In this document: one piece after another, positions 23,112 to 38,132 of the stretch
Layout of the letters: the number at the start of each line of letters is the position of its first letter
Position numbering within the stretch: the stretch's first letter is position 1
Notes under the pieces: generated by a model
What the model saw: the letters and a program-made list of their open reading frames with translations, nothing else
What the model was told of the DNA's origin: nothing
The model's database searches: none
Program-made: the position numbers and the translations under genes
Source of the DNA: Alkalimarinus sediminis
GTDB lineage: Bacteria; Pseudomonadota; Gammaproteobacteria; Pseudomonadales; Oleiphilaceae
Direction: 5' to 3'
Assembly (NCBI RefSeq): GCF_026427595.1
Contig: NZ_CP101527.1
Coordinates: 2,855,001-2,919,000, forward strand
DNA: 64,000 bases

Positions 23112-24060
23112 ATATATTGGTAACAGGTATCCGCAACTCTTTAGGCATACTAAAGACAATATTCTCCTCACGCCCCTGAATCTCCTCAGGAACATTTCCG
23201 CCTAACGCTTGGATGCGCTCGACCACCTGCTTTACAAGCACATCAGGTGCAGACGCCCCAGCAGTAACTCCAACATTTTTTCGGCCATCAAGCCATGCTG
23301 GGTCAATACCTTCTTCGTTATCTATTAAGTATGCGGGGGTTCCCATACGCTCAGCAAGCTCTCTTAAACGGTTAGAGTTTGAGCTGTTCGGCGAGCCTAC
23401 AACTAGCATTAAGTCACAATCTGCAGCCAACTGCTTTACCGCATCTTGCCTGTTTTGAGTTGCATAACAGATATCGTCTTTTCGCGGGCCTTCTATGTTA
23501 GGGAATTTGCTACATAGCGCATCTATTACCCGAGCCGCATCATCCATCGAGAGTGTTGTTTGCGTTACATAAGTAAGCGCTTCGGGGTTTTCAACTACTA
23601 ACTTGTCGACATCGTCTTCATCTTCAACAAGATAGATATTTCCACCAAAAGAGAAGTCATACTGCCCCATAGTGCCTTCGACTTCAGGATGCCCTTCGTG
23701 GCCAATCAGTATGCATTCTCGCCCATCTCGACTATAGCGACTCACTTCAAGATGGACCTTGGTAACTAATGGGCATGTAGCATCAAAAACTCTTAATCCA
23801 CGTGTTTTTGACTCTTCTTGAACCGCTTTCGATACACCATGAGCACTAAATATAACTAATGAGTCATCTGGCACTTCATCCAACTCATCAACAAATATTG
23901 CACCACGATCACGCAGGTTATCGACAACAAATTTATTGTGAACAACTTCATGACGCACATATACAGGTGCACCAAAAACATCCAGCGCACGATTCACAAT
24001 CTCGATTGCTCGGTCGACCCCCGCACAAAAGCCACGCGGGTTTGCCAGACTTATTTTCAT
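23110..24060 (-). CDS. ispH: 4-hydroxy-3-methylbut-2-enyl diphosphate reductase
   Basis: Last enzyme of the MEP isoprenoid pathway; reduces HMBPP to IPP and DMAPP using a 4Fe-4S cluster. It has 316 aa. The three cluster cysteines are C12 (NPRGFCAGV), C96 (DATCPLV) and C198 ([11 protein letters not shown]). The substrate histidines and glutamate are in VRHEVVHN and [14 protein letters not shown], and [12 protein letters not shown] is present. It follows fkpB by 25 bases, the fkpB-ispH pair common in gammaproteobacteria. With ispB at 35 kb the window holds two isoprenoid genes. Confidence 0.97.
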
Positions 24061-24085
24061 ATAGCGCTACCTAATTTCATATTAC

Positions 24086-24538
24086 TTACTTATCTTCGCC
24101 CAAAGCCGTTACACTGAGTATTTGCACCTCAAAGCGCAACGTTTTACCTGCTAACGGGTGATTAAAGTCAATCAACACCTCGTCATCACTCAGCTCGGCT
24201 ACAACACCCGGTAGTTCTGATTTGTTGGCATCTGCAAATGAGACAACTAGCCCTTCAGCAAGCTCCATATCAGCTGGGAACTCTGACCTTTTCATCCTCT
24301 GCTGGTTATTCGGATTGGGCATTCCAAATGCTTTTTCAGGTGGCACATCCCACTGCCCTTTCTCACCAGCCTTCATACCGACTAACAACTCTTCGAAACC
24401 GGCGGGAAGATTACCATCACCAAACTCAAATGCAGCAGCATCACCTTCGAATGTAGAATCAACAACACTGCCATCATCAAGCTTTAGGGAAAAATGTAGT
24501 ACCACACCGGTGTCTTTACCTACTTCCAATTCACTCAT
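24086..24538 (-). CDS. fkpB: FKBP-type peptidyl-prolyl isomerase SlpA/FkpB
   Basis: 150-aa SlyD-like prolyl isomerase with an IF (insert-in-flap) domain, probably a cytoplasmic chaperone. The FKBP core shows VVLHFSLKLDDGSVVDSTF, then FEFGDGNLPAGFEELLVGMKAGEKG and PPEKAFGMPNP. The C-terminal half has VVAELSDDEVLIDFNHPLAGKTL, a strong SlyD/SlpA marker. The metal-binding His-rich tail of SlyD is absent. The ATG at 24538 follows a leader made almost entirely of 15-bp repeats, with its own promoter at 24689-24718. It is co-transcribed with ispH. Confidence 0.95.
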   Translation of the reverse strand: MSELEVGKDTGVVLHFSLKLDDGSVVDSTFEGDAAAFEFGDGNLPAGFEELLVGMKAGEKGQWDVPPEKAFGMPNPNNQQRMKRSEFPADMELAEGLVVSFADANKSELPGVVAELSDDEVLIDFNHPLAGKTLRFEVQILSVTALGEDK

Positions 24539-24556
24539 GCTCTTTATCCTGTTAAA

Positions 24557-24691
24557 AAGTACCTTTCAAATAAGTACTTGTCGAGTAAGTACCTGCCGAG
24601 TAAGTACTTGTCGAGTAAGTACTTGTCGAGTAAGTTCTTGTGGAATAAGTTCTTGTCGAATAAGTACCTGTCGAGTCATTACTTGCAAATT
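24557..24691. repeat. Nine-unit 15-bp tandem repeat in the fkpB leader
   Basis: Units of 15 bases run from 24557 to 24691. The core unit, AAGTACTTGTCGAGT, is exact at 24572, 24602 and 24617. Units at 24587, 24632, 24647 and 24662 differ by one to four bases, and the first and last units (24557, 24677) are degenerate. Each good unit has an 8-base sequence centred on AAGTACTT, a perfect palindrome in the exact copies. The unit is five codons long and open in frame on both strands over most of the array. It lies between lspA and fkpB. Confidence 0.95.
24566..24679 (-). other. Candidate 37-codon pentapeptide-repeat leader ORF
   Basis: Read leftward from ATG at 24679 to TGA at 24566, the repeat array encodes Met, seven pentapeptides (TRQVL five times, IRQEL and IPQEL once each), then Ile. 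The order is TRQVL, IRQEL, IPQEL, then four TRQVL. The ATG lies only a few bases from the start point expected from the promoter at 24689-24718, so it would be a leaderless message; no ribosome-binding sequence is seen. The stop is 27 bases before the fkpB start. Translation is unproven and the open frame may simply follow from the repeat length. Confidence 0.25.
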
Positions 24692-24718
24692 ATATTTTCT
24701 CAAAATAAGAATATACAA
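24689..24718 (-). promoter_or_regulatory. Probable promoter of fkpB-ispH
   Basis: Read leftward: TTGTAT (24718-24713), 18 bases, then TATAAT (24694-24689), a perfect -10 box. The predicted start is near 24682, at the edge of the 15-bp repeat array, so the mRNA leader would consist of the repeats. Confidence 0.6.
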
Positions 24719-24767
24719 AACACTCACTGATAGAATAGCTTGAAGCCTCTAACGGAGGCACTATTGA

Positions 24768-25244
24768 TCAAGCTTTTTCTGGTTCATCTTCGTTAGGTTT
24801 TCGAAATATGTCTAACGCCATCATAATCGCCCCTACCGTAATAGCAGAGTCTGCGACGTTAAAGGCAGGGAAGTGATAGCTCTCCCAGTAAAAGTGTAAA
24901 AAGTCGACAACATACCCGAGTAGCACACGATCATATAAGTTACCAAGTGCGCCCCCTAATACTAACGCAATGGCAATCGCGAGCCACTTATCTCCCTTAA
25001 TCGAGGCAAGCCACTTAACCAACATCACACTGATAGCGACCGCAAGTGCAGCAAAGAACCAGCGTTGCCAACCGCCCGCATTTGCTAGAAAGCTAAATGC
25101 GGCGCCTGTATTGTGGAGTAACGTAAAATTAAAGAACGGTAAAACAGGTACAGAAATGGCGTAATCGAGCATGTCAGTTGCTAGCCATTTTGTTCCTAAA
25201 TCCAGCACAACAACTACTGCAGACAACCATAACCATTTCAACAT
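24768..25244 (-). CDS. lspA: Lipoprotein signal peptidase II
   Basis: Inner-membrane aspartyl protease that removes signal peptides from prolipoproteins such as BamD and the lipoprotein at 39.6 kb. It has 158 aa and four transmembrane helices. Conserved blocks: LGTKWLA (about 16-22), NTGAAFSFL (45-53), GALGNLYDR and YVVDF with catalytic D114, and FNVADS with catalytic D132. It follows ileS, as is general in gammaproteobacteria, but a terminator-like hairpin lies in the 83-base gap, so lspA may receive only part of the ileS transcript. Confidence 0.97.
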   Translation of the reverse strand: MLKWLWLSAVVVVLDLGTKWLATDMLDYAISVPVLPFFNFTLLHNTGAAFSFLANAGGWQRWFFAALAVAISVMLVKWLASIKGDKWLAIAIALVLGGALGNLYDRVLLGYVVDFLHFYWESYHFPAFNVADSAITVGAIMMALDIFRKPNEDEPEKA

Positions 25245-25279
25245 AAAAACCTTACTTTATCGCTTAATTTCAACCCATT

Positions 25280-25302
25280 AAAAATGGTGCGCATAACGCA
25301 CC
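25280..25302 (-). terminator. Intrinsic terminator between ileS and lspA
   Basis: On the minus strand, GGTGCG, five-base loop, CGCACC (25302-25286), followed by ATTTTTA. A compact GC-rich stem with a T tract. It would end or attenuate the ileS transcript before lspA. Confidence 0.6.
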
Positions 25303-36383: not shown

Positions 36384-38015
36384 ATGCAGCAATTATCGGA
36401 TCTGGATGCATCCTTTCTTTATTTAGAAACTGACAACTCACCCATGCTAATCGGCGGGCTATACGTATTTGATAACGCCCAAAGAGAAACACCCATGAAT
36501 TTTGGTGAGTTTTACTCTTTTATAGAATCCAGACTCCATGTTGCCCGCTTTTTCCGCCAACGCTTAGTTGAAGTCCCTTTAAAGCTAGACCAACCCTACT
36601 GGGTTGATGACCCTGAATTTGAATTATCCAAGCATCTCTCCTACGTAACCCTAGACGGGACAAACAAAGACACACAGCTTACAGAGCTTGCAGCCGAACT
36701 GTTCAGTCAATCATTAGATCGAGACAAACCTCTTTGGTCGATCACCTTCGTCGACGGACTAGGCCGTGATTCAAATTTACCAGAAAACTGCTTTGCGATG
36801 ATTGTCAGAATTCATCACGCTGCAATCGACGCACTCAGTGGCGATGAGGTGATGAGCTCACTACTGGACTTTTCAGCAACGCCAGTCACCACCAAGAAGC
36901 CTTCTGCGTGGAACCCAGAACCACTTCCTAGCAAGTTCAGACTCATAGGCGGCGCCTATGGAAATGCGCTAGGCACACCCTTTAGGCTAGCAAACCTCGC
37001 AAAAGAAACAGCTGCATCAACATTTTATTCAACACTATTGCAGCGGTTGCGCAGCCTTAACCTTCCGCCGGCACTATTTAGCGCTCCAAGAACCGCATTT
37101 AATAAGACCATCAGTGATAAACGCGCACTTCATTATGTCGAAATACCATTGGACCGCATCAAAAACATTCGTAAGCAGATTGACGATAGCACTATAAACG
37201 ATGTGGTAATGGGTATATGTGGCGAAGCATTGCACCACTACCTAAAGGACCACAATGCTACACCTGACGCCCCCTTAATTGCGATGACCCCTATCTCTGT
37301 CCGCTCTAAGAGCCTACAGAAAAAGACCGGAAATCAACTGTCGGCGATGATGCTCTCTCTTGCTACTGATGTATCTCACCCTATAGCGAGAATTAAAAAG
37401 ATCCATGAGAATGCCGTTGTTTCCAAAACATATAGTCAGGCAATATCCGCAGGACGACTAACTGAGCTCATTCCCTCAAGTGTCGCGGCGCTGTCTGCCA
37501 GAATTTATACCGAGTTCCAGTTAGCACAACGCCACAAGCCACTGTTCAACATCCCGATCACGAATATTCCAGGTCCACAAACGCCTCTCTACATGAATGG
37601 ATCTAAACTTATTAGACAAGTTGGAACCGCCCCTCTTTTCGATGGCATTGGCGTAGTCTTAGTGGTTGTCAGTTATGATGGACAAATCACCATCAGCGTA
37701 ACCTCATGCCCAACAATGATGAAAAACCCAGGCGACTTTGGTAGTTATCTGTTAAAAGCAGTCGATAATATAGAGCAGGCACTTCACACCCCTTACTCCC
37801 ATGAAGAGCCAACAACCGACCCTGCCGAGCAGTCTCAATCGTTAATGCAGATGGGATCTGGTTTTATTGATGATATCTCTGGCCTTTTTAGTAACCTATT
37901 CAGTCACAACCCATCAACAACCAACAACCAGAATGGCAAGACAAATAACCATAATGACAAGGCAAGCAACCATAGCGACAAAACAAACAGCCACAACAAA
38001 GAAGGTGACGAGTGA
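36384..38015 (+). CDS. Wax ester synthase / diacylglycerol acyltransferase (WS/DGAT)
   Basis: Bifunctional acyltransferase that joins acyl-CoA to long-chain alcohols or diacylglycerol, forming storage wax esters or triacylglycerol. It has 543 aa. The start MQQLSDLDASFLYLETDNSPM is family-typical. The active-site motif HHxxxD appears as IHHAAIDALSGDE (about 142-154), with Ala replacing the usual Gly after the Asp. NIPITNIPGPQTPLYMNG and later VVSYDGQITISVTSCP are conserved. The last 40 residues are a low-complexity tail containing three heptads [G/D]K[T/A][N/S][N/S]H[N/S]. A -10-like TATAAT at 36292 suggests its own promoter. It implies carbon storage as neutral lipid. Confidence 0.92.
   Translation: MQQLSDLDASFLYLETDNSPMLIGGLYVFDNAQRETPMNFGEFYSFIESRLHVARFFRQRLVEVPLKLDQPYWVDDPEFELSKHLSYVTLDGTNKDTQLTELAAELFSQSLDRDKPLWSITFVDGLGRDSNLPENCFAMIVRIHHAAIDALSGDEVMSSLLDFSATPVTTKKPSAWNPEPLPSKFRLIGGAYGNALGTPFRLANLAKETAASTFYSTLLQRLRSLNLPPALFSAPRTAFNKTISDKRALHYVEIPLDRIKNIRKQIDDSTINDVVMGICGEALHHYLKDHNATPDAPLIAMTPISVRSKSLQKKTGNQLSAMMLSLATDVSHPIARIKKIHENAVVSKTYSQAISAGRLTELIPSSVAALSARIYTEFQLAQRHKPLFNIPITNIPGPQTPLYMNGSKLIRQVGTAPLFDGIGVVLVVVSYDGQITISVTSCPTMMKNPGDFGSYLLKAVDNIEQALHTPYSHEEPTTDPAEQSQSLMQMGSGFIDDISGLFSNLFSHNPSTTNNQNGKTNNHNDKASNHSDKTNSHNKEGDE
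37935..37997 (+). repeat. Three 21-bp tandem repeats in the 3' end of the WS/DGAT gene
   Basis: Units 37935-37955, 37956-37976 and 37977-37997 encode GKTNNHN, DKASNHS and DKTNSHN in frame. They form the end of the protein's hydrophilic tail, six codons before the stop. Confidence 0.85.
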
Positions 38016-38036
38016 AACGCTACCGCGCTTAAAGCA

Positions 38037-38112
38037 CTCAACGACACCCAAGTTGCTCAACAACACCTAAGGTACTCAACAACACCCAAGACACTCAACA
38101 AAACCTAAGATA
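38037..38112. repeat. Four 19-bp tandem repeats after the WS/DGAT gene
   Basis: Units start at 38037, 38056, 38075 and 38094, with the pattern CTCAACRACACCYAAGNNN. They begin 22 bases after the WS/DGAT stop and end 20 bases before the convergent AMMECR1 stop. No terminator hairpin was found in this gap. Confidence 0.9.
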
Positions 38113-38132
38113 CACAATACTATCAAGCACAC

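Follow-up and report, generated by a model that had tools for sequence, protein, structure and literature searches.

A 15-bp tandem array upstream of fkpB in Alkalimarinus sediminis is probably a lineage-specific spacer minisatellite

The 64,000-nucleotide stretch of the A. sediminis genome analysed here (the window) carries a 15-bp tandem array in the lspA-fkpB spacer. We take it to be an ordinary minisatellite of the spacer that is specific to this lineage and probably near-neutral (probability about 0.84). Intergenic minisatellites and VNTR loci are a known class of tandem arrays in bacterial spacers. The present array resembles them in having head-to-tail units within the 10-30 bp range that differ by point changes, in its location in a spacer and in being private to one lineage, although here it is known from one strain. 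It lies in a row of genes on the minus strand in the order ribF-ileS-lspA-fkpB-ispH (features in Table 1). The products of ribF, ileS, lspA and ispH score above their NCBIfam cut-offs, and that of fkpB falls just short, at 124.6 bits for a cut-off of 125. The spacer measures 229 bp, between the last base of lspA (24768) and the first base of fkpB (24538).

Table 1. Features of the fkpB region (window coordinates)
Feature	Position	Strand	Remarks
ispH, 316 aa	23110..24060	-	NCBIfam
fkpB, FKBP-type peptidyl-prolyl isomerase, 150 aa	24086..24538	-	NCBIfam
fkpB ribosome-binding region	24539..24555	-	TTAACAGGATAAAGAGC ahead of ATG; from the sequence
Tandem units, n = 8, 15 bp each	24556..24675	-	Consensus (minus strand) CTCGACAAGTACTTA; TRF and in-register cut
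Ninth unit, decayed	24676..24690	-	Matches consensus at 9/15 positions
TATAAT, presumed -10	24689..24694	-	Perfect match; overlaps decayed ninth unit by 2 bp; read from the sequence
TTGTAT, weak -35 candidate	24713..24718	-	18 nt upstream of TATAAT; 3/6 agreement with TTGACA
lspA, 158 aa, upstream in the row	24768..25244	-	NCBIfam

TRF called the array at 24571-24685 with a period of 15, 7.7 copies and 86% matches. Cut in register, it comprises eight recognisable units whose agreement with the 15-position consensus, read 5' to 3', is 14, 13, 12, 15, 15, 13, 15 and 10; the array proposed in the preliminary description is therefore real, but its ninth unit, at the upstream end, has decayed. We regarded as a minisatellite a set of contiguous head-to-tail units of about 10-60 bp occurring above chance, and the copies here are contiguous, head to tail and beyond chance. 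A search of the window for the unit with up to three mismatches returned 10 matches, 7 of them inside the array, against a chance expectation of 1.8 for the whole window. The array does not fill the whole spacer; it covers 135 of the 229 bp, so that 77 bp separate it from lspA and 17 bp from fkpB.

The core of the eight units takes three forms, i.e. AAGTACTT exactly in three units, AGGTACTT in three and AAGAACTT in two, so the earlier statement that every unit is centred on AAGTACTT holds for just three of the eight. In the other five the 8-bp palindrome AAGTACTT is disrupted without compensating changes. The shorter motif (T/A)ACTT is retained by all eight units, which counts against a pure minisatellite reading and means that weak selection on the array is possible.

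The expansion is lineage-specific, i.e. absent or shorter in relatives, which was our second criterion for a minisatellite. We detected fkpB in all 58 genomes searched and drew 30 loci from these for gap measurement; lspA adjoins fkpB in all 30. The gap is estimated at 229 bp in A. sediminis and lies between -7 and 89 bp at the remaining 29 loci (70, 78, 35 and 58 bp in the four congeners). When the array DNA was used as a query at E 0.001, one of 163 family genomes matched, namely its own, in a search that might miss short or diverged arrays. No array lies upstream of fkpB in any of the four congeners; absence from close relatives was one part of what the preliminary description had named as evidence against its proposal, and that part is borne out.

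The spacer of one congener (G003) does contain a unit-like sequence, TTTGACAGGCACTTA, next to the ribosome-binding site; it agrees with a unit at 12 of 15 positions and lacks the palindrome. A match this good was equalled in 5 of 1,000 shuffles, a count uncorrected for the number of spacers compared. The other three congener spacers (four were tested in all) gave 53, 131 and 227 of 1,000, i.e. no significant unit-like sequence by this shuffle test, and a multiple alignment of the five spacers had too many gaps to use. The comparison suggests that the array grew out of one resident copy like that in G003. Nucleotide identity to G003 averages 78.7% over the aligned blocks, so the two are separate species, and the ancestral state is judged from a rather remote relative. 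We infer the direction of change and the mechanism of duplication as follows: a 15-bp segment beside the fkpB ribosome-binding site would have been duplicated head to tail in the A. sediminis lineage, with replication slippage or unequal recombination as the probable cause, and the copies would have reached about eight or nine and then diverged through point mutation. On this reading the array lies in untranslated DNA, with a possible promoter on its upstream side and an intact ribosome-binding site on its downstream side; because of this placement it would mainly make the leader longer. It is most likely tolerated and would affect fkpB-ispH expression little, i.e. it would be near-neutral.

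Arrays of this kind recur in the same genome. We counted arrays with a period of 10-30 bp and at least three copies in 20 stretches totalling 400 kb, where TRF found 16 with units unrelated to one another and periods of 14-27 bp; a single-base shuffle of the sample (n = 1) gave none. Twelve of the 16 were non-coding by a rough ORF call, a split that is approximate because the same call placed the fkpB array itself in an antisense ORF. Extending the count to 604 kb, window included, gave 20 arrays. The corresponding numbers elsewhere were 12 in 400 kb (G001), 3 in 400 kb (G002), 5 in 200 kb (G014) and 2 in 200 kb (G032); one 200-kb block of G003 contained a single array. The 224 kb surrounding the window contain five arrays of this class, each located inside or between blocks that align to the G003 contig, and none of the five has a counterpart of the class in the 200 kb of G003; arrays of this class therefore differ among related species. 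The sole array in the G003 block lies on the border of an approximately 37-kb stretch that has no aligned block in this part of the A. sediminis genome.

Other repeats were seen in passing. Two neighbouring short tandem arrays (37923-37993, 21 bp; 38036-38117, 19 bp) lie in the window where an ORF of 543 aa ends (3' side) and in the convergent spacer that comes next, at a break in the G003 alignment. Longer tandem blocks occur at L139 10766-12228, L140 11762-12195 and L142 4855-5875, with units of 242, 163 and 363 bp, respectively; they have GGTGCGCAAGCGCACC-type inverted repeats in common and perhaps belong to a mobile or REP-like element that is dispersed in the genome. At about 1708-2862 of L142 (G000:C1:1890001-1910000) a repeat some 36 bp long, GTCTTAATCCCC...GTTCCGAC, recurs roughly every 69 bp and resembles a CRISPR array.

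The array adjoins a perfect TATAAT and essential genes, which counts against the minisatellite reading. The pair TTGTAT-18-TATAAT is present as quoted in the preliminary description, but it can hardly be called a good promoter, having a weak -35 and failing the rule of our promoter scan, which found no site satisfying it in 24000-25300. In G003 a promoter-like TTGCCA-16-TATATT stands just ahead of the single unit-like sequence, and the scan there returned two overlapping sites with a common -35, against 0.5 in shuffles. A promoter at about this position is thus plausible in both genomes, judging from these motifs. The presumed -10 touches the repeat only in the decayed ninth unit, with all eight clear units on its downstream side. 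A hairpin is predicted at the lspA stop codon (24735-24775, minus strand), with no clear T run, and is a possible candidate for a weak terminator or a processing site; read-through from lspA into fkpB is possible. That the array lies in an fkpB leader transcribed from TATAAT is plausible, given the comparable site in G003: the array could make up most of such a leader, and read-through from lspA is equally possible.

In a rival reading, slippage would change how many units separate the promoter from the ribosome-binding site and would thereby tune fkpB-ispH expression between cells. The position of the array between TATAAT and the fkpB start fits such a copy-number-variable leader, and tandem repeats have been described in the promoters of lpdA, cysG-efpA and dop of M. 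tuberculosis, where copy number is reported to change at 10^-2 to 10^-3 per chromosome (PMC12817950). Like the fkpB array, those repeats lie directly upstream of a co-directional gene pair (PMC12817950); the units at cysG and lpdA, however, are 54-58 bp long and are described there as repeated promoter sequence, whereas the fkpB unit has 15 bp and its eight clear copies lie downstream of the presumed promoter. A report on Mycoplasma hyopneumoniae likewise describes a genome with many tandem repeats in its spacers, like that of A. sediminis, and upstream repeats for which qPCR suggested that expression differs with repeat number (PMC5179023). The array being a minisatellite, and upstream tandem repeats in bacteria already having been described (PMC12817950, PMC5179023), the earlier assertion that no element of this type had been described was too strong. 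Among the matches listed in literature searches on fkpB, ispH and lspA operons, promoters and repeats, and on minisatellites, VNTR/MIRU and Oleiphilus, no title concerned the fkpB array.

We predicted the energy needed to open the fkpB start in 37 in-silico leaders, the native one among them, assuming a transcript start at 24684. Opening was predicted to cost 6.2 kcal/mol with eight units and 5.1 kcal/mol with none, with no trend between 0 and 8 units. Across all 37 leaders the values ranged from 5.0 to 8.6 kcal/mol and single variants were up to 3.6 kcal/mol apart; losing a single unit moved the predicted value by at most about 1.6 kcal/mol, and in some leaders that had lost more units the shift reached 2.4 kcal/mol. 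The loss of particular units might therefore matter, which favours a variable leader, but the absence of a trend with unit number speaks against it. So do the differences between the units (86% matches), which would slow slippage, and the location of the eight units outside a reading frame; because they are downstream of the presumed promoter, their number would also leave promoter spacing unaffected. Taken together, we consider tuning by a variable leader unlikely. A related proposal, that a 15-mer close to the ribosome-binding site was amplified under selection as a contingency leader whose copy number sets the translation or stability of the fkpB-ispH transcript, we regard as quite improbable; were it true, it would mean cell-to-cell variation in an essential isoprenoid enzyme.

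The units could instead be clustered sites for a regulator of fkpB-ispH that recognises AAGTACTT, since the consensus contains an 8-bp palindrome that three units keep exactly. Several results make this a very doubtful reading. Besides the uncompensated loss of the palindrome in five units, a search of the whole genome with up to two mismatches gave 16 matches, of which 6 belong to the array; the 10 outside it compare with 17 for a reversed control pattern, and the search for the unit elsewhere that had been proposed as a check thus revealed no dispersed copies beyond chance. The array is, moreover, missing at fkpB in the congeners, and the lone unit-like sequence of G003 does not carry the palindrome. 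We rejected binding sites on the lack of dispersed copies together with the broken palindrome.

A structured RNA or riboswitch was likewise set aside. The predicted fold of the sense strand was not significant (z -1.5, with 18 of 200 shuffles as good), and Rfam gave no family at its gathering score in 24000-25300, the only hit being mir-621 inside lspA at 20.3 bits against 71. The plus strand, which is not the expected transcript strand, gave z -3.9 with none of 200 shuffles as good; palindromic tandem units by themselves inflate fold scores, and we attribute this value to pairing among such units, G-U pairs included, and not to function. The three roles suggested in the preliminary description, i.e. 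protein-binding sites, small RNA elements and a spacer tuned by copy number, consequently find no support in dispersal, palindrome conservation, sense-strand fold, Rfam or predicted start opening.

Cores of AAGTACTT at 15-bp spacing also occur elsewhere. A pattern scan of viral contigs returned 61 stretches with two such cores 15 bp apart, of which 54 fall inside open frames that are 100 codons or longer, as do four of the five with at least three cores within 150 bases; because of this most of the viral stretches look like coding repeats. In viral contigs L100, L108, L118 and L131 there are 15-bp arrays with AAGTACTT cores in long open frames, and several of the viral 15-bp arrays encode Thr/Ser-rich (TSTST) repeats. 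The congener G001 has a 15-bp array whose TRF consensus contains AAGTACTT, in the gene for a large acidic repeat-rich protein (L180) that is presumably FimV-like; we took its likeness to the fkpB array as coincidence.

The array could in principle be coding, since a plus-strand ORF antisense to fkpB (24222-24743) reads through it as STCRV repeats with Cys at every fifth residue, and might be a small gene for a peptide like the CefA RiPP family. The ORF matches NCBIfam NF038108, the CefA family, with a score of 22.9 bits and an E value of 6e-5 (24.2 bits when the genome was searched), and its frame has the highest synonymous share of the six, with 6 of 16 changed codons (0/16 to 5/16 in the others, the next being 5/16 and 4/13). 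The match, however, stays under the curated cut-off of 30 bits, and of the 17 variable cells of the STCRV frame 6 are third codon positions, about what is expected without selection and inside the range of the other frames (4-8 of 17-19 in the six, about one third); there is thus no clear coding selection in any of the six frames. The antisense position of the ORF and the absence of the array from relatives also weigh against a gene. As putative partner enzymes of CefA we considered PF05114 and NF038107, the latter chosen for its number adjoining NF038108. No PF05114 enzyme was found in the A. sediminis genome, and NF038107, a radical-SAM family, reached just 57 bits against a cut-off of 600 and also matches 13 of 14 control genomes, so that it is little informative. 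NF038109, an unrelated family that matched no control genome, was discarded. MbnB_TglH_ChrH (PF05114) enzymes score above the cut-off in two of five genus genomes (L233 in G004, L234 in G001). Literature searches on CefA gave only unrelated papers among the matches listed. The NF038108 score most likely reflects a five-codon repeat that contains Cys, and we hold an STCRV peptide gene to be extremely unlikely.

Read as a minisatellite, the array offers an example of a spacer that grew to 229 bp, compared with 35-78 bp in congeners, within a row of essential genes while the neighbouring genes stayed intact. It also carries a caution, since a striking array beside an essential gene would here be one among several unrelated minisatellites in a genome that accumulates such arrays.
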